DNA of 64,000 nucleotides, taken from NCBI RefSeq assembly GCF_947494025.1, contig NZ_CANLTQ010000001.1:496001-560000 (forward strand), given 5' to 3'. A program made the translations under genes and the position numbers. Source of the stretch: an uncultured Jannaschia sp. (GTDB taxonomy: Bacteria > Pseudomonadota > Alphaproteobacteria > Rhodobacterales > Rhodobacteraceae). Of the stretch, positions 7,821 to 58,684 are shown piece by piece (position 1 is the stretch's first letter; every line of letters starts with the position of its first letter). The notes under the pieces were generated by a model, which did not search any database, was not told the DNA's origin, and saw only the letters and a list, made by a program, of their open reading frames with translations.

Positions 7821-8363
7821 TCAAAACGGGATCGCGAGGGACAGGTTCAGGACGCTGTCCACATCGTCGCTCATATAAGGCAGGACATTGAGGCGGACCT
7901 CCACGCGGTCGGTGCGGTAGGTACCGCTGACGAAGCCCATCGGAATGAAGCCTCCGACATTCGGGATGCCGTGACGATCCTCCAGGATCTCCGATAGTTC
8001 CTTGTAATAAGCGAGACCGACGCTGCCGCCGATCCGAACCGCTCCGGGCCCAAGCCTCGCCACCTGCCGGGACAAACCCACGACCGCGATGGGGGACACC
8101 TCTTCGTAACTGTTGTAGAAGACGCCCGCCTCGGCATGCGCTTCGGTAAGGCCCCGCTCCAGCGGCCAGCGACTCCCGAGGGTCAAGCCGGGATTGATGT
8201 CGTTGTAGGCATCGCTGCCGAAATGCTCGGAACCGAGGATGATGCCGAGGTAACGCTCCCCCGCCGATGCCGGGACGGGAAGCGCCAGGAGGGCGAGGGC
8301 GAGGCGAATCACGAGCGCGGCTCCGGTGGTTTTCGCCCTGATGGGGCCGGACGCGTTGCGCAT
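7821..8363 (-). CDS. exported protein of unknown function, possible small beta-barrel
   Basis: A 180-residue protein with a late N-terminal signal sequence (LVIRLALALLALPVPASA, cleavage near residue 34). The mature part has alternating short strands, glycine-rich turns (YLGIILGSEHFGSD, GLTLGSRWP) and ends in a phenylalanine (LNLSLAIPF), features of small outer-membrane beta-barrels. I do not recognise the family. The first 15 residues before the hydrophobic run suggest the true start may be downstream, but no better ribosome site is evident. It is 26 bases downstream of rnj and could be its last operon member. Confidence 0.6.
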   Translation of the reverse strand: MRNASGPIRAKTTGAALVIRLALALLALPVPASAGERYLGIILGSEHFGSDAYNDINPGLTLGSRWPLERGLTEAHAEAGVFYNSYEEVSPIAVVGLSRQVARLGPGAVRIGGSVGLAYYKELSEILEDRHGIPNVGGFIPMGFVSGTYRTDRVEVRLNVLPYMSDDVDSVLNLSLAIPF

Positions 8364-8389
8364 CCGTTAACCGCCGGAGCCGTCTGGCT

Positions 8390-10069
8390 TTAATCCGCCG
8401 TCAGGCGCGTGATCAGGACCGAGACCTCGGGGCGCTTGCCGACTTCGTCCTGCGCGACCTTGCGGATCCCGCGCACGATCAGGTTCTCGAGCTTCTCGTC
8501 GTCGTCCGCCGTCCGCGTGTCTACGCGGGCGAGGATCCCGGCAAGGTGATCCTCCATCGTTTCGGCCAGCGGTGCGGCGCCGTTGCCCTGTCCAGGCAGG
8601 CCGCGCAGATCGACCCACGTGTCCTCGAGCACCTCGCCGTCGTCGTCGACCATGACGGCCACGACGACGTGACCGTTCAATGCCATTCGGATCCGGTCGC
8701 GGATCACCCCGTCGAACTGTCCCACAAGTGCCGCGCCGTCGAGATAGGTGCGGCCCGTCTCGACATGATCGACGACCTTCGGCGCGTTGCCCGACAGGTC
8801 CAGCATGGTCCCGTTCGGCGCGACGATTCCGGTCCGTCCGAGAGCCTTGGCGAGCTTCGCATGCTCTCGCAGGTGCCGGTGCTCGCCGTGCATGGGGATC
8901 ACCACCTGCGGATCGACCAGTTGATGGACCGTTTCCAGGTCCGGCCGGTTCGCATGGCCGGAGACGTGGTAGAAACCGTCATCGTCGGTCACCACGTCCA
9001 CGCCGAGCTCGGAGAGGTTGTTCATGATGATGCCGACGTCGCGCTCGTTGCCGGGGATCGTCTTCGACGAGAAAAGGAACGTGTCCCCCTCGCTGAGCTC
9101 GATGCCGAAATACTTGCCGCGCGACAGCTGCGCCGAGGCGGCCCGCCGCTCGCCCTGACTGCCGGTCACGATCAGCATCAGGTTCTCGCGCGGGATGTTC
9201 ACCGCGTCCTCAGGCGAGACGGTCTTCGGGAAGTCCGTGAGCAGACCCTCCTCCGTCGCGGCCTCCGTCATGCGGCGCATGGCCCGGCCCATCAGGCAGA
9301 CGGACCGTCCGGCCGCCGCCCCCGCCTCCGCGAGCGACTTCAGCCGCGCCACGTTGGAGGCGAAGGTCGTGGCGACGAACATGCCCGATGCCGCCTTGAC
9401 CAGCGGCTTCAGGTTCGGCGCGACCTCGGATTCGGAACGCCCGGGATGCTTCGAGAACACGTTGGTGGAATCGCAGACCAGGGCACGCACGCCAGGCCTC
9501 GCGGCCTCCGCCCAGAGGTCGGGGTCGAACGCCTCGCCCACGACGGGGGACCGATCGATCTTGAAGTCGCCGGTATGGATGATGCGGCCGGCCGGCGTGT
9601 CGACGACGAGGCCCGCGCTTTCGGGGATCGAGTGCGACACCGGCAGGAAGCCCACGCGGAAGGGGCCCGCCTCGATCATGGCCGGGAAGGTTTCCGCGGT
9701 CTTCACTACGTTCGGGTCCAGCCCCTTCTCCACCATCTTGCGTCGGGCGAGGTTGGCGGTGAAGCGGCGGGCATGGACCGGGACGCGGAGTTCGGGCCAC
9801 AGATGGCCGATGCCGCCGACATGGTCCTCGTGCCCGTGGGTGATGAAGATCGCCTCCAGCCGGTCGAGGTTCTCGCGCAGCCAGGCGATGTCGGGCAGGA
9901 TGACGTCGACGCCAGGGGTGGTATCCATGTCGGGGAAGGCGATGCCGAGATCGACGAGGATCAGCCGTTCCTGCCCTTCAGGTCCGTAGCCGTAGACATA
10001 GGCGTTCATTCCGATTTCACCGGCCCCGCCGAGGGGGAGATATATAAGCCGCTCGCGCTTGGCGCTCAT
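8390..10069 (-). CDS. rnj: ribonuclease J
   Basis: A 559-residue metallo-beta-lactamase/beta-CASP RNase with endonuclease and 5'-3' exonuclease activity in mRNA and rRNA processing. The metal-binding motif is HGHEDHVGG, followed by HSIPESAGL, HTGDFKID and, later, the beta-CASP motif VSGHANRPDL and MHGEHRHL. In alphaproteobacteria a single RNase J works beside RNase E and matures 23S rRNA 5' ends. Its ATG overlaps the coaX stop codon (ATGA at 10069-10066), implying translational coupling in the birA-coaX-rnj unit. Confidence 0.95.
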   Translation of the reverse strand: MSAKRERLIYLPLGGAGEIGMNAYVYGYGPEGQERLILVDLGIAFPDMDTTPGVDVILPDIAWLRENLDRLEAIFITHGHEDHVGGIGHLWPELRVPVHARRFTANLARRKMVEKGLDPNVVKTAETFPAMIEAGPFRVGFLPVSHSIPESAGLVVDTPAGRIIHTGDFKIDRSPVVGEAFDPDLWAEAARPGVRALVCDSTNVFSKHPGRSESEVAPNLKPLVKAASGMFVATTFASNVARLKSLAEAGAAAGRSVCLMGRAMRRMTEAATEEGLLTDFPKTVSPEDAVNIPRENLMLIVTGSQGERRAASAQLSRGKYFGIELSEGDTFLFSSKTIPGNERDVGIIMNNLSELGVDVVTDDDGFYHVSGHANRPDLETVHQLVDPQVVIPMHGEHRHLREHAKLAKALGRTGIVAPNGTMLDLSGNAPKVVDHVETGRTYLDGAALVGQFDGVIRDRIRMALNGHVVVAVMVDDDGEVLEDTWVDLRGLPGQGNGAAPLAETMEDHLAGILARVDTRTADDDEKLENLIVRGIRKVAQDEVGKRPEVSVLITRLTAD

Positions 10070-10839
10070 GCGTTTTCCTTGTTGTATCTGTGGATCACGG
10101 TCAGACCGTGCATCGTGAGGTCATCCTCGAAGGCATCGAAGAGCACTTCGGCCTGCTGGAAGAGCGGCGCAAGCCCTCCAGTGGCGATTACCTTCATCGG
10201 GCGATCACGTTCCGCGCGGATGCGCGCCGCGATCTCCTTGATGAGGCCGACATAGCCCCAGAACACCCCCGACTGCATGCAGGCGACGGTATTCGTGCCG
10301 ACGACGCGCTGCGGCTGGGTGATGTCGACGTGCGGAAGTGCCGCGGCCGCCATGTGCAGCGCCTCGAGCGAGAGGTTGGCGCCCGGCGCGATGACGCCGC
10401 CGACATAGGCGCCGTCGGTTTCAACCACGTCGAACGTCGTCGCGGTCCCGAAATCGACCACGATCAGATCGCCGCCGTGACGGTCGTAGCCCCCCACCGT
10501 GTTGACCAGCCGGTCGGGACCGACCTGCGTGCCGGCATCCACGCGGACATCGACGGGCAGCTTCGTTTCCGGCTTGCCCACGACGAGGGGTCGGGTGCCG
10601 AAATACCGGTCGCACAGGACGCGCAGGTTGAACACGACGCGCGGAACAGTGGACGACACTATGACGTCGGTGATCGACATCTCGATCCCGTTCAGCGCCA
10701 TAAGCGTGCGGAGCCAGGTGTAGTACTCGTCGGCCGTGCGCTGGTGCTGCGTGGCGCAGCGCCAGGAGGCGAGGAACCGCGCGCCGTCCCAGATGGCGAA
10801 GACGGTGTTGGTGTTGCCGCAATCGACGGTCAGGAGCAT
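10066..10839 (-). CDS. coaX: type III pantothenate kinase
   Basis: A 257-residue ASKHA-fold kinase that phosphorylates pantothenate, the first step of coenzyme A synthesis. Visible motifs: the phosphate-binding DCGNTNTVFAIWDG at the N-terminus, GPDRLVNTVGGY, DFGTATTFD, and the C-terminal VIATGGLAPLF. Type III kinases need a monovalent cation and are not feedback-inhibited by CoA. It overlaps birA upstream by 10 bases and rnj downstream by 4 bases, so the three are surely co-transcribed. Confidence 0.95.
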   Translation of the reverse strand: MLLTVDCGNTNTVFAIWDGARFLASWRCATQHQRTADEYYTWLRTLMALNGIEMSITDVIVSSTVPRVVFNLRVLCDRYFGTRPLVVGKPETKLPVDVRVDAGTQVGPDRLVNTVGGYDRHGGDLIVVDFGTATTFDVVETDGAYVGGVIAPGANLSLEALHMAAAALPHVDITQPQRVVGTNTVACMQSGVFWGYVGLIKEIAARIRAERDRPMKVIATGGLAPLFQQAEVLFDAFEDDLTMHGLTVIHRYNKENA

Positions 10840-11573
10840 GGCGCCTCGGCGAAGAAGATGTCGGCGGCGGCGATGCGGTGACGCGTCGGCCTCTGGGCGA
10901 GGATCAGGTGGCCCTCCACATCCACGTCCTCGAAGATGCCGGTTCGCGTCCGTGACATGGTGCGGGCGGTAACGGTCTGCCCCAGCCGGGCCGCGCGGGC
11001 GAGCCAGCCTGCGCGGATCGGCGCGAAGCCTTCCACGCGCAGTTCGGTCTCCCGGGCGGCATAGGCCGGTGCCAATGCGTCGAGCAGCTGTTCCGGTTCG
11101 ATGGCATGGCCTGCGGGGGCCAGGGCGGCCGGCGGCACGGCCCCCGGCTCAATCGCGCCCATGTCCGGCGCGGCGGCGAGATTCAGGCCGATGCCGACGA
11201 TCAGGCGGCCGGGCTCGGGACATTCGAGGAGGATGCCGGCGAGCTTCCCATCCCGAAAAAGCACGTCGTTCGGCCATTTGAGCGTGAGGTCGTCGACGCC
11301 GAGGACCGCGAGCGCATCGTGAAGCGCAAGCGCCGCGACGAAGCTTCGCAAGGCGATGCGGGCCGGCTCGTCGGCGAGCGTGTAGCCCAGCGAAGCGGCA
11401 AAGTTGCCCGGCGGCATCGCCCAGGCACGACCCCTTCGGCCGCGCGCGGCGGTCTGATGCCAAGCGAACAGCCATGTCGGTCGCGCGGGCCGACGCCGCG
11501 CGAGCTCCGCGGAGGTGCTGTCGGTTTCAGGCAGGACGACGCGGTCCACCCCCTCGGGCCAGGGGGCGGCCAT
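10830..11573 (-). CDS. birA: biotin--[acetyl-CoA-carboxylase] ligase
   Basis: A 247-residue biotin protein ligase that attaches biotin to the BCCP subunit of acetyl-CoA carboxylase. Motifs: TDSTSAELARR near the N-terminus, the biotinyl-AMP loop TAARGRRGRAW, LKWPNDVLF and GIGLNLAAAPD. It lacks the N-terminal DNA-binding domain of E. coli BirA, so it is a class I ligase without direct repressor function. Its ATG follows the nuoN stop codon without a spacer, so it sits at the end of the complex I operon. Confidence 0.94.
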   Translation of the reverse strand: MAAPWPEGVDRVVLPETDSTSAELARRRPARPTWLFAWHQTAARGRRGRAWAMPPGNFAASLGYTLADEPARIALRSFVAALALHDALAVLGVDDLTLKWPNDVLFRDGKLAGILLECPEPGRLIVGIGLNLAAAPDMGAIEPGAVPPAALAPAGHAIEPEQLLDALAPAYAARETELRVEGFAPIRAGWLARAARLGQTVTARTMSRTRTGIFEDVDVEGHLILAQRPTRHRIAAADIFFAEAPCS

Positions 11574-13004
11574 TTACCGGACCAGCGCGGCGGCGGCGTT
11601 CGCGGCGGCCGGTTCCAGCCCCAGCAGGTTCGGGAACAGCGCCAGCATCAGTACACCCGACGCGGCGAGCGCGACCATCTGGAAGACCGGCACCTCGTTG
11701 TCGAGCGGCGTCCCGCTCTCGCCGAAATACATGTAGTAGACGATACGCAGGTAGTAGAACGCGCCGATGACGGAGGCGATCATGCCGAGCACGGCGAGCC
11801 AGACGAGTCCCGCATCCACCGCCGCCTGCAGCACCGCGAACTTGGCGAAGAAGCCGAGCGTCGGGGGAATGCCGGCCAGGCTGAACATCAGCAGAAGCAG
11901 CGCAAGCGCCGCGCCGGGACGCGCCTTCGACAGTTGGTTCAGCGACGTGATGTCCGTGGTCTCGAGTCCGTCGCGCGTCATCGACAGGATGAAGGCGAAG
12001 GTGCCGATGTTCATCACGACGTAGATCGCCATGTAGAGGAGCATCGCCTCCACCCCGCCCGCGGTGCCGGCCGCGAGGCCCATCAACGCATACCCCATAT
12101 GGGCGATCGAGGAATAGGCCATCAGCCGCTTGATGTCGCGCTGACCGATGGCGGCGATGGAGCCCACGAACATCGACAGGAGCGACAGGAGCGCGATGAT
12201 CTGCTGCCAATCGCTGACGACGTTGCCAAAGGCGTCGTGCGTGACACGGGCGAACATGCAGATCGCGGCGACCTTGGGAGCCGTCGCCATGAAGGCGGTG
12301 ACCGGCGTCGGCGCGCCCTCGTAAACGTCGGGCGTCCACATGTGGAACGGTGCGGCGGAGACCTTGAACGCGAGGCCCGCCAGCATGAAGACGAGCCCGA
12401 AGAGAAGGCCGAGCGGAACGCTGCCGGACGCAGCGAGGATCACGGCGGAGAACTCGGTGGAGCCGGCATAGCCGTAGGTCAGCGAGATGCCGTAGAGCAG
12501 CAGCCCCGAGGACAGTGCGCCAAGGACGAAATACTTGAGCCCGGCCTCCGTCGATTTCACGTTGTCCCGCCGCAGGGAAGCCACGACGTACATCGACAGC
12601 GATTGCAGTTCCAGCCCCATGTAGAGCGTCAGCAGGTTGCCCGCCGAGACCATGACCATCATGCCGATGACGGCGAGCGTGATCAGCAGCGGATACTCGA
12701 ACTTCTCGAGCCCGAACCGGGCCATGTGGTCCTGCCCCATGATGAGCACGACGGCGGCGGACAGGAGGATCGTCACCTGCGCGAAGCGGCTGAACCCGTC
12801 CTTCACGATCATGGCGGAGAAACCGGTCCCGATCTCGGAGGAGACGCCGATCCAGAACGCGACCACGATGAAGACCGCAGCGGTCAGCCAGATAAGCAGC
12901 CGCGTCAGCGCGTCCTTGCCGGTATAGACGGCGGCGAGCAACGCGCCGAGCGCGTACACGGCAAGGACGATCTCGGGCAGGATGATGGTCAGATCAGCGC
13001 TCAT
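11574..13004 (-). CDS. nuoN: NADH-quinone oxidoreductase subunit N
   Basis: A 476-residue membrane protein with about 14 transmembrane helices, one of the three antiporter-like proton-pumping subunits of complex I. Recognisable are the Proton_antipo_M region ([23 protein letters not shown], in which the lysine is part of the proton channel) and [18 protein letters not shown]. It is the last of the fourteen nuo genes; the stop codon abuts the birA start codon. Separation from nuoM is 12 bases. Confidence 0.97.
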
Positions 13005-13016
13005 CGGCGGCCTCTC

Positions 13017-14564
13017 TCAATGTCCGGCATCCGCGACCGCGCGATCCAGAACCAGATCGGCGGTGGCGATGTCGTAAGTCTCGACAAGGTTGGCGACCGA
13101 GGGGCCGATGATGTCGGTGATCAGGCTCGGATACACGCCCAGCAGGATCGTGGCCACAACCAACGGCGCGAAGATCGCCCGCTCCCGCCCCGTCATGTCG
13201 GTGATCGAACGCAGGCTCTCCTTGATGAGGTCGCCGAAGACGACCCGGCGATAGAGCCAAAGCGCGTAGCAGGCCGAGAAGATCACCCCGGTCGTGGCGA
13301 CGAGGGCGACCCAGGTATTGACCTGGAAGACCCCCATCAGCGTCAGGAACTCGCCCACGAAACCCGATGTGCCCGGGAGGCCTACATTGGCGAGCGTGAA
13401 GAGCATGAAGACGAGCGCATAGGCCGGCATTCGGTTGACGAGGCCCCCATAGGCCGCGATCTCCCGCGTGTGCATCCGGTCGTAGATCACACCGACGCAG
13501 AGAAAGAGCGCGCCCGAGACGAAGCCGTGGCTGATCATCTGAAAGATGGCGCCGTCGATCCCCTGCTGATTGGCGGCGAAGATGCCCATCGTCACGAAGC
13601 CCATATGCGCCACGGAGGAATAGGCGATCAGCTTCTTCATGTCCTCCTGCATCATCGCGACGAGGGAGGTGTAGACGATGGCGATGGCCGAAAGCCACAG
13701 GACGAGCGACCCCATCACTTCGGAGCCGACGGGAAACATCGGCAACGAGAAACGAAGGAACCCGTAACCGCCCATCTTGAGGAGGATCGCGGCCAGCACG
13801 ACCGAGCCCGCCGTCGGCGCCTGGACGTGCGCGTCGGGCAGCCAGGTATGGACCGGCCACATCGGCATCTTGACCGCGAAGGACGCGAAGAAAGCCAGCC
13901 ACAAGAGCGTCTGCGCGCCGCCCACGACCTCGAGCCCGAGCACGTTCAGCGGCGCGTAGCTGAACTGGTGCGCGAGCAGCGTGGGGATGTCGGTCGTGCC
14001 CGCGTCGAGATACATCGCGATCATGGCGACAAGCATCAGAACGGAGCCGAGCAGCGTGTAGAGGAAGAACTTGAAGGATGCGTAGATCCGGTTCGCCCCG
14101 CCCCAGATGCCGATGATGAGGAACATCGGAATGAGGCCGGCCTCGAAGAACAGGTAGAACAGGATCAGGTCGAGGGCGCAGAACACGCCGATCATCAGCG
14201 ATTCCAGCACGAGGAGGGCTACCATGTAGTCCTTCACCCGTGTCGTCACATCCCAGCAGGAGGCGATGACGAGCGGCATCAGGAACGTCGTGAGCATCAC
14301 GAACAGCACCGAGATTCCGTCCACGCCCAGCTTGTATCGCAGTCCGAGGACCCAGTCCCGCTCCTCGACGAGCTGGAAGTCCGTGTTCGAGGCGTCGAAG
14401 CCCGACAGCACGAAGAGCGAGACGATGAAGGTGAAGGTCGTTGCGCCGAGCGCCAGCCACTTGGCGTTGCGCTGCGCGGCAGCGTCGTCACCGCGCAGGA
14501 ACAAGGCGAGGATCGCGGCGGCGATCATCGGCGTGAAGGTGACGATGGAGAGAAGGTTGTCCAT
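13017..14564 (-). CDS. nuoM: NADH-quinone oxidoreductase subunit M
   Basis: A 515-residue antiporter-like subunit of the complex I membrane arm. The conserved proton-channel segments are present: [23 protein letters not shown] with its lysine and histidine, and [19 protein letters not shown]. The extended hydrophilic loop after TM1 (around residues 40-90) matches alphaproteobacterial NuoM. It lies between nuoL and nuoN with 12-base spacers, as expected for a single transcript. Confidence 0.97.
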
Positions 14565-56012: not shown

Positions 56013-57584
56013 ATGGCAAGGAAAGACAAGCCCCGCCGCACGCGGGCGGAGACGCCGAAAGGCTTCCGCGACTATTTCGGCGCCGAGGTCGTGGAGCGCA
56101 AGGCCATGCTCGACGCGATCGCCGAGGTCTACCATCTCTACGGCTTCGACGCGCTCGAAAGCTCCGCCGTGGAGACGGTCGAGGCGCTGGGCAAGTTCCT
56201 TCCCGACGTGGACCGCCCGAACGAGGGCGTGTTCGCCTGGCAGGAGGACGCGGACTGGCTGGCGCTGCGCTACGACCTGACCGCGCCTCTGGCCCGCGTC
56301 TACGCGCAGCATCGCAACGACCTGCCCACGCCCTATCGCCGCTACGCGATGGGTCCGGTCTGGCGCAACGAGAAGCCCGGGCCGGGGCGGTTCCGGCAGT
56401 TCTACCAATGCGACGCGGACACGGTGGGCACAGCGAGCGTGGCAGCCGACGCCGAGATCTGCATGATGCTTGCCGATACGCTTGAGGCGGTGGGGATCGC
56501 GCGGAGCGACTACGCCATCCGAGTCAACAATCGTAAGGTTCTGAATGGTGTGATGGAAGTCGTAGGGCTCCTTGACCCTAGTAATCCTCACGCGAGCCTC
56601 CTTGAGCGGGGCATCGTTCTTCGTGCCATCGATAAGCTTGATCGTCTGGGCGAAGCCGGCGTCCGCGCGCTCCTCGGCGAGGGCCGAGTTGACGAGAGCG
56701 GCGACGTGGCCAAGGGTGCAGGCCTTTCTGAGGGGCAAATAGACATCATAACGGCGTTTCTCGGGTCTGCGAAAAACGCGCGTCTGCTCTTGAGTGAAGG
56801 CGTCACATTGGCAGAACGGGAGAAAGGTGCCGAGCGGAGGGAAAAGATCGATGCCGCGGCTTCTGGATGGAACGAGCTAATCTGCAATGAGCTGAAATCC
56901 ATCGTTGGAGACAGCACTCAAGGACAAGAAGGGGTTCAAGAACTTGAGAAGATTGCCGAGCTTGTGGCTATTGGTGGTTACAATCAAAATCAGATAACGA
57001 TTGACCCCTCCGTCGTGCGCGGGCTCGGCTACTATACCGGTCCCGTCTTCGAGGCCGAACTGACCTTCGAGATCACCGACGAGAAGGGCCGGCCGCAGCG
57101 GTTCGGCTCGGTCGCGGGCGGGGGGCGCTACGACGACCTCGTGACCCGCTTCACCGGGCAGGCCGTGCCGGCCACCGGCGTCTCGATCGGCGTGGACCGC
57201 CTCCTTGCCGCGCTGCGCGCCAAGGGGCGGCTGGGGGACGCGGCGGCGGGGCCGGTCATCGTCACCGTCATGGATCGCGACCGCATGGCCGAATACCAGC
57301 GGATCTGCGCCACGCTCCGGCAGGCCGGCATCCGGGCGGAGGTCTATCTCGGCAACCCGAAGAATTTCGGCAACCAGCTCAAATACGCCGATCGGCGGGG
57401 CAGCCCGGCCGCGATCATCCAGGGCTCCGACGAGGCCGCGCGCGGCGTGGTGCAGGTCAAGGACCTCGTCCTCGGCACGCGGCTCAGCCAGGACGCCACC
57501 GTCGAGGAGTGGAAGGAGAACCCGTCCCAGAGCGAGGTGCCGCTCGATGAGCTCGTCACCCATCTCAGCCGCCTGCTGAAATGA
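56013..57584 (+). CDS. hisS: histidine--tRNA ligase
   Basis: A 523-residue class II aminoacyl-tRNA synthetase. Motif 2 is around [26 protein letters not shown], the HisA-type motif is [16 protein letters not shown], and motif 3 is [14 protein letters not shown]...[10 protein letters not shown]; the anticodon-binding domain follows (from about residue 415). GC and codon use change sharply inside the gene: about 56515-57005 is 40-57% GC with codons such as CTT, AAT and ATA, against about 70% on either side. This block is the insertion domain and looks recombinant. The stop overlaps hisZ (ATGA). Confidence 0.95.
56515..57005 (+). other. low-GC mosaic block inside hisS
   Basis: Line-by-line counts give about 57% GC near 56590, 48% near 56910 and 40% near 56970, against roughly 70% in the flanking hisS sequence and in hisZ. 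The block corresponds to residues about 168-331, from VNNRKVLNG to the [10 protein letters not shown] junction, and reads through without frame damage. Confidence 0.75.
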
Positions 57585-58684
57585 TCACGCCCGAAGACCG
57601 CGACCGCGCCGCGGCCATCCTCGCGCGGTTCCGCGAGGCCGGCGCGCGGCCGGTCGCGGCGGAGATCCTGCAGCCCGCCGGCACGCTGCTCGACCTTTAC
57701 GGCGAGGACATCCGCGCGCGGGCCTTCACCACGCAGGACCCGCTGGCCGGGGAAATGATGCTGCGCCCCGACTTCACGGTGCCGGTGGTGCAGGCGCATA
57801 TGGCGGGCGCCGCCGACCCCGCGCGCTACTGCTACGCGGGCGAGGTGTTCCGCCGGCAGGAAAGCGACCCGGACCGCCCGCGTGAATACCTGCAGGCGGG
57901 CTACGAGGTCTTCGACGCCGCCGACCCCGCCGATGCCGATGCGGAGGTCTTCGCGCTCCTTCACGAGGTACTGGCGCCGTGGCGGCCGGTCGCGGCGACG
58001 GGCGATCTGGGCATCCTGATCGCCGCTGTCGCGGGGCTGACGACATCCCCGCGGCGGCGCGCGGCCCTGCGCCGGCATATCTGGCGCCCGGTGCGGTTCC
58101 GCCGCCTGATGGAGCGCTTTACTGGCCGATCCGTCCGTCCCGCGAAGCGCGCGGCCCTGCTAGCGGCATTGGAAGGCGTTCCGCCCGAGGATCTGGTCGC
58201 GCGGGCCGGCACGATGGTCGGCCTGCGCGAAAGCGGCGAGATCGCGGCACGGCTCGACGCGCTGCGCGAGGACGCCGCGGAGCCGCCGGTGGCGCGGAGC
58301 GAGGCCGACGTGCTCGACACGCTGCTGACGATGGAGGGGTCGATGGCGGCGGCGATCGGCCCGCTGCGCGACATGGCGGTGGACCTGCCGACGCTCGGTC
58401 CCGCCGCCGACCGGCTCGAGGCGCGCGCGGAGGCGCTTGCCCGGCGCGGCCACGACCCCGCCGCCCTGCCCTTCGCGCCGGCGCGGAACCGGACGGCGAT
58501 GGAATATTACGACGGATTCACCTTCACCCTTTCCGCGGCGGGCCGACCGGACCTCGCCCCGCTCGGCACCGGCGGGCGCTACGACGCGCTGACCGCGGTG
58601 CTGGGCGGCGGGCGCGGCGTGCCGGCCGTGGGCGGGGTCGTGCGGCCGGGCCTGCTGGCCGGCCTCGCGGAGGGCGCGCGATGA
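57581..58684 (+). CDS. hisZ: ATP phosphoribosyltransferase regulatory subunit
   Basis: A 367-residue HisRS-like paralogue lacking the anticodon-binding domain, which activates the short form of HisG in histidine biosynthesis. HisRS-like motifs are seen: [44 protein letters not shown] and the late [25 protein letters not shown]. It overlaps hisS by 4 bases and hisG by 4 bases (both ATGA), so the three genes form a tightly coupled operon. Confidence 0.94.

Follow-up and report, generated by a model that had tools for sequence, protein, structure and literature searches.

How does a block of low-GC, foreign-looking DNA come to lie inside hisS, the gene of an essential housekeeping enzyme, the histidyl-tRNA synthetase (HisRS), and did this happen only once? 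The question is raised by the window, i.e., the whole stretch of 64 kb which was analysed here, from an uncultured Jannaschia species of the family Rhodobacteraceae. An earlier note on this DNA had proposed that in this genome the insertion domain of HisRS was replaced by recombination with a distant donor. Exchange of this domain is supported by the comparisons described below, but not its restriction to one genome, since it recurs across the Rhodobacteraceae.

The hisS gene and its low-GC block

The following features of the window are referred to in the text:

56013..57584, + strand: hisS, histidyl-tRNA synthetase, 523 amino acids (TIGR00442, PF13393, PF03129)
56493..57005, + strand: replaced block, residues about 161-331 (drop in identity and change in pS against G012, GC3 of 0.56 in residues 168-331; left edge approximate)
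56517..56720, + strand: left part of the insertion domain, residues 169-236 (protein conserved among relatives, low GC here with GC3 of 0.56 and 0.67, 62% identity to G012)
56730..56930, + strand: hypervariable module, long form, residues 240-306 (from the alignment of relatives; residues 239-309 without a relative at E <= 1e-3 among 394 genomes of the family)
56766..56864, + strand: additional helical hairpin predicted for the long form, with helices 252-268 and 273-284 (AlphaFold2 model of the window HisRS compared with a short HisRS)
56931..57005, + strand: right part of the insertion domain, residues 307-331 (GC3 at its lowest, 0.39 in residues 296-331)
57581..58684, + strand: hisZ-like gene, directly 3' of hisS (named from position, length and PF13393; rejected as the source of the module)

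The whole protein scored 370.1 bits with TIGR00442, above the curated cut-off of 286.75, and was the single match to this HisRS in its own genome (G000). It is a HisRS with a conserved core, for which aminoacylation is predicted.

Between positions 56515 and 57005 the GC content was 0.548, as compared to a mean of 0.684 for the window. Only 6 of 63510 windows of 491 bases were as low as this block, all of them starting at 56511-56517, and the lowest one not overlapping it had a value of 0.578 (start 29047; this region was taken by eye for a respiratory complex I operon). The low-GC block described in the earlier note is therefore the lowest 491-base stretch of the 64 kb. The accompanying shift in codon usage was found as well, with a GC3 of 0.898 in residues 1-167, 0.561 in residues 168-331 and 0.932 in residues 332-523, and the reading frame was uninterrupted across the block, as had been stated. 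The range of 40-57% GC given for the block applied better to its ends than to its middle, the GC content being uneven (0.47-0.63 in 150-base windows). Further length-variable stretches of HisRS within the genus were noticed at about residues 75-82 and 186-198 of the window protein (sliding identity 0.34 and 0.20).

Comparison with the nearest relative

The closest relative of the window HisRS was that of G012, with 93% identity in residues 1-165 (N segment) and 92% in residues 335-523 (C segment). The inner parts were 62% (residues 169-236), 16% (residues 240-306, gaps counted) and 44% (residues 307-331) identical. In windows of 20 codons, nucleotide identity to G012 was 0.82-0.98 outside residues ~161-331 and 0.22-0.68 inside; pS was 0.27 in the N segment and 0.22 in the C segment, and rose to 0.69, 0.79 and 0.93, respectively, in the parts between them. 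The right edge of the block was thus found where it had been placed, at residue 331 (position 57005), whereas the left edge lay slightly earlier than assumed, near residue 160-165 (about 56493), when judged against G012.

Trees constructed separately for the segments of hisS differed in topology: the 20 rows of the genus required 4 changes with the N segment, 2 with the C segment and 12 with the flanks of the insertion domain; these trees were built quickly from 112 rows out of the 180 described below, with few supported forks, several long branches meeting on the flank tree, and L050, a further Jannaschia, counted outside the genus group. Replacement of the whole gene does not agree with these data, as both the N and the C segment stay with the genus. 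What was found is a mosaic gene, its segments having different nearest relatives and sharp edges. An ancestral block, which the earlier note had considered as the alternative, is contradicted by the disagreement of the segment trees and by the low-GC blocks of relatives, which have other sequences. Taken together, identity, pS and trees show that homologous recombination has replaced the insertion domain alone, the edges of the exchange lying near residues 160-165 and 331. The replaced copy may be that of the window, that of G012 or each of them.

Short and long forms in the Rhodobacteraceae

For a wider comparison 200 hisS loci were examined, namely 40 from the first searches, the best 80 of 588 named ones, and 80 from the top of a further list. 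After removal of 13 exact duplicates 187 rows remained, in which the number of residues between the anchors 228 and 312 was about 55 in 126 rows, 74-108 in 54 rows, and otherwise 42-66 in 7 rows. Without five rows from other families and two truncated ones, 180 HisRS sequences of Rhodobacteraceae were obtained, of which 126 were short (53-56 residues), 52 long (74-108 residues) and 2 intermediate. HisRS of the window type was present in all 20 genomes of the genus which were analysed, and 12 of them had the long form. Other families were sampled with one to three genomes each; here 52 genomes possessed a related HisRS, which aligned to the short form unbroken, apart from about 20 extra residues in two of the 52. 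One alphaproteobacterium of another family (G501) possessed two full-length HisRS, C24 and C51, with 59% and 56% identity to the short-form query.

Since the genome of the window consists of 215 contigs, an artefact of assembly or alignment might be thought of. Its probability is negligible, because long forms occurred in the single-contig genomes G015 and G312 and in named isolates, and were always in frame.

Low GC content accompanied the long form. When the GC3 of the core was subtracted from that of the module, the average was -0.026 for the short form and -0.281 for the long one (Mann-Whitney p = 6e-19); for the right flank the values were -0.045 and -0.173 (p = 2e-6), and for the left flank, with a weak effect, +0.012 and -0.058 (p = 2e-4), these p values serving as a guide only, since the rows are related. 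Exceptions were 2 of 52 long modules, which were GC-rich, and 11 of 126 short modules with low GC. The left edge of the low-GC region varied; residues 169-200 had a low GC3 in the window and in G011, but not in G013, G006, G010 and G016.

On a FastTree tree of the core (180 rows) at least 38 changes of form were required, whereas 200 shuffles required 45.1 on average and never fewer than 40. With a profile of 33 of the 54 long modules (A4), 40 of the 394 family genomes, which represent nearly one per genus, gave one match each at E <= 1e-5. These counts are lower bounds, as the module of the window itself was missed at this threshold.

Hypervariability and exchange of the module

Identity of the modules was compared with that of the core for pairs drawn from 179 rows, with one genome per species. 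Between long forms the median module identity (gaps counted) was 0.15, 0.15, 0.14, 0.16 and 0.19 in successive bins of core identity from 0.78 to > 0.94 (n = 669, 440, 75, 9 and 6); between short forms it was 0.49, 0.51, 0.64, 0.70 and 0.89. For example, G017 and G006 were 95% and 94% identical in the N and C segments, respectively, and 30% in the module. These values show that long alleles are replaced faster than species diverge. Relatedness was recognizable in many pairs of long modules, at 20-40% identity and with hydrophobic positions in common; the comparisons show hypervariable, low-GC long forms on one shared helical scaffold.

Module types cross genera. The modules of L012, from the genus of the window, and of L100 (Sedimentitalea xiamensis) were 73% identical over 59 amino acids, equal to the identity of their C segments, and those of L010, L059, L088 and L182 had mutual identities of 40-60%. 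Taken together, the comparisons show that one domain of HisRS is exchanged by recombination again and again, and that most alleles in the pool from which it is drawn are low in GC.

Could such turnover be neutral, the domain tolerating almost any helical hairpin and recombination supplying it from a large pool, without selection? HisRS would work in both forms, as their numbers indicate, and in the predicted structures the module forms an additional hairpin, as this explanation would have it. Yet when 180 kb of G017 were compared with G006, local divergence was strongest in hisS among the 63 syntenic ORFs examined, identity falling by 0.50 (by 0.37 in the ORF ranked second); the 63 were taken from 67 reciprocal-best ORFs of this one genome pair and represent a few percent of a genome; turnover of the module is thus out of proportion to the divergence of the other genes. 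Furthermore, long modules differed in five of the six pairs with a core identity > 0.94, the short form is well conserved, and in the sole near-identical long pair, L074 and L087 (Limimaricola), pN of the module was 0.01 and pS 0.11. From this one pair a long module looks constrained as long as it is kept. Neutral turnover is therefore regarded as rather improbable.

Search for the source of the modules

The distant hisS donor which the earlier note had postulated was not encountered: a search of 394 family genomes at E <= 1e-3, in collections which are partial, matched the module of the window in its own genome alone, and none of nine sampled low-GC relatives carried a long module. Cellular donors of low GC were likewise rejected as the source of long modules in general; in a sample ranked by similarity to the window, which is no census, one of 180 sequences had a core GC3 at or below the median GC3 of long modules, and none of the nine with a core GC3 < 0.6 was long. 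The hisZ-like neighbour was rejected too as a donor in gene conversion, the best of 54 long modules matching the HisZ of the window with an E value of 0.026 over 46 amino acids.

Profile A4 was also used to look for modules elsewhere in the genomes. Of its 40 matches, the 23 for which the position of hisS was known all lay inside hisS, and 17 had no position for comparison, among them those in G276 (frame of 407 amino acids) and G423 (frame of 285 amino acids at a contig edge). Within the genus, at E <= 1, 13 of 16 matches were inside hisS; three weak ones elsewhere (E of 0.23, 0.39 and 0.49) are taken as chance. These data bear on the possibility that the long module, or its DNA, is selfish and promotes its own transfer into short alleles by copying, as a homing element without an intron would do. 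Repeated appearance on unrelated backgrounds and the low GC content would fit such an element; the modules, however, differ in sequence instead of representing one spreading element, and matches of known position were confined to hisS. The module is also in frame and predicted to form part of the HisRS fold. Selfish spread is accordingly held to be very unlikely.

No convincing known domain was detected in 33 long modules with Pfam and PADLOC, which gave weak matches of single members only (best 2.2e-4, Rsbr_N), and in comparisons of the module fold the matches listed were filled by whole enzymes. A search for RNA elements yielded none in the block and one sub-threshold match outside it. No match at E <= 0.01 was found for the modules of L058 and L088 in plasmids, or for those of L058 and the window in phages, and there was no confirmed match of the block of the window in viral contigs. 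Whole HisRS was found in 82 plasmid records; among the 15 listed, ten were of the Rhodobacterales type, all with the length of the short form. Records filed as plasmids carry hisS of the window type in several Rhodobacterales (H1-H10), including one of 21.9 kb from Cereibacter sphaeroides (H2).

A viral contig with hisS

In phage records 18 matches to whole HisRS were obtained, all with < 60% identity (15 listed). Three viral scans revealed a single contig with a hisS of the type considered here, IMGVR_UViG_3300025759_000462 (L282), with a length of 29.7 kb. It contains a full-length hisS (8001-9605), tyrS (9826-11076) and a permuted tmRNA of alphaproteobacterial type (12854-13261); among ten scanned ORFs a helicase, a thymidylate synthase, PhoH, an endolysin and an exonuclease were recognized. 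The contig is AT-rich, whereas its hisS and tyrS are GC-rich, with a dip in GC at the insertion domain of hisS. Compared with cellular HisRS, the best identities were 91% (N segment), 88% (C segment), 77% (left flank), 92% (right flank) and 46% (module); the module has the short length. Huge phages encode aminoacyl-tRNA synthetases (aaRSs), according to the accessible part of PMC7162821; compared with what is described there, the present contig is one of 29.7 kb, combines hisS and tyrS with an alphaproteobacterial-type tmRNA, and has an unusual insertion domain in hisS.

TyrRS was considered as a second case and showed only moderate variation (12 of 17 loci, and the phage copy). The TyrRS type shared by the phage and 17 of the 20 genomes of the genus was not matched at E <= 1e-30 in the other three (G016, G005 and G008), and the TyrRS of G015 was divergent (64%); TyrRS has possibly been replaced.

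tRNA-His and HipA-type kinases

The insertion domain of HisRS contacts tRNA, and co-evolution with a cellular partner, for example tRNA-His or HisZ, might have been expected to change it. The tRNA-His of 18 genomes of the genus was 94-100% identical to that of the window; those of G016 (L278; 88%) and G011 (L279; 83%) were divergent and both genomes have the long form, so that a link to tRNA-His may exist in these two. As the main cause, co-variation with tRNA-His was rejected, the molecule being nearly invariant (0-1 substitutions) in 10 of the 20 genomes, seven with the long and three with the short form. Together with the lack of resemblance between the modules and the HisZ of the window, this leaves only a slight chance for co-evolution with a partner. 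In the genus tRNA-His has no gene-coded G-1, and a T is present at that position. Alphaproteobacterial HisRS goes back to an ancient transfer, by which recognition of tRNA-His was altered, as described in the accessible part of PMC3937112. The HisRS discussed there is of the same type as here, and the absence of a gene-coded G-1 is common to both; that case, however, as far as the accessible text describes it, was one ancient transfer of a whole gene with a co-change of the tRNA, while here one domain is exchanged repeatedly and tRNA-His is nearly unchanged.

HipA-type kinases were the only candidates for an antagonist that were tested. They were present in 11 of 33 genomes with the long and 17 of 47 with the short form (p = 0.82), i.e., without an association, in counts which include some fragment matches. 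HipA1 and HipA2 of Caulobacter act on GltX, TrpS and LysS (PMC7029023, accessible part). Alphaproteobacterial aaRSs can thus be attacked by proteins, although HisRS is not among the targets named in that part and HipA does not follow the long form in our data.

Possible causes of the exchange

Selection is read here from the pattern and would have favoured novelty, because hisS was singled out in the control, turnover exceeds the divergence of species, and the one allele that could be tested looks constrained. Frequent swapping of the domain suggests an attack on HisRS at that spot. We infer that escape from an inhibitor of HisRS, an idea put forward in the earlier note, may be involved. The explanation to which we incline, by a modest degree and for the whole chain of steps, is that an antagonist binds to this surface of HisRS, and that selection for novelty there maintains the variability of the exchange site. 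The agent would be a protein recognizing the outside of the insertion domain, since the variation in sequence is nearly limitless while the helical plan is kept. It could be an inhibitor from a phage or mobile element, a toxin of a rival, or a resident toxin or defence effector. Judging from one pair, novelty seems to arise by swapping and not by fast point mutation; for this it would be enough if short pieces of DNA arrived through gene transfer agents, phages or by some other route.

A more specific version is conceivable, but we would sooner doubt than accept it: a widespread phage, toxin or defence protein recognizes the insertion domain in an arms race, cells import new low-GC hairpins, and some phages carry a variant hisS, with tyrS and tmRNA, which keeps translation running. 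Antibiotics against other aaRSs exist, and the antagonist might be a small-molecule inhibitor of HisRS made by neighbours, the many alleles then being resistance alleles. The conserved catalytic segments do not include the variable part, however, and unlimited variation of a hairpin would fit a contact between proteins better, so that we consider a small molecule improbable.

Relation to known systems

Transfer of whole aaRS genes and mosaic core genes are already known kinds of events. Mosaic core genes arise by homologous recombination between species, e.g., the genes of penicillin-binding proteins, and they likewise show a sharp-edged foreign block within a conserved gene; the block in hisS differs in being one hypervariable domain, with a change in length, in an aaRS and across a family. 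In restriction specificity subunits and other genes of conflict, target-recognition domains are exchanged. A constant scaffold with an exchangeable hypervariable domain is common to these subunits and HisRS, but the host of the domain is here an essential housekeeping enzyme instead of a protein of defence or of the surface. The open-licence literature searched, as judged by titles and the opening of abstracts, contained no paper on a hypervariable or exchanged insertion domain of bacterial HisRS, nor on such a domain in another aaRS.

Conclusions

The genes of aaRSs are usually seen as slowly evolving, conserved housekeeping genes, whereas the HisRS domain described here acts like a gene of conflict. 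For Rhodobacteraceae, hisS is consequently a risky phylogenetic marker. Should selection be the cause, an undiscovered agent would be aimed at HisRS, and the alleles of the module would offer a direct route to find it.
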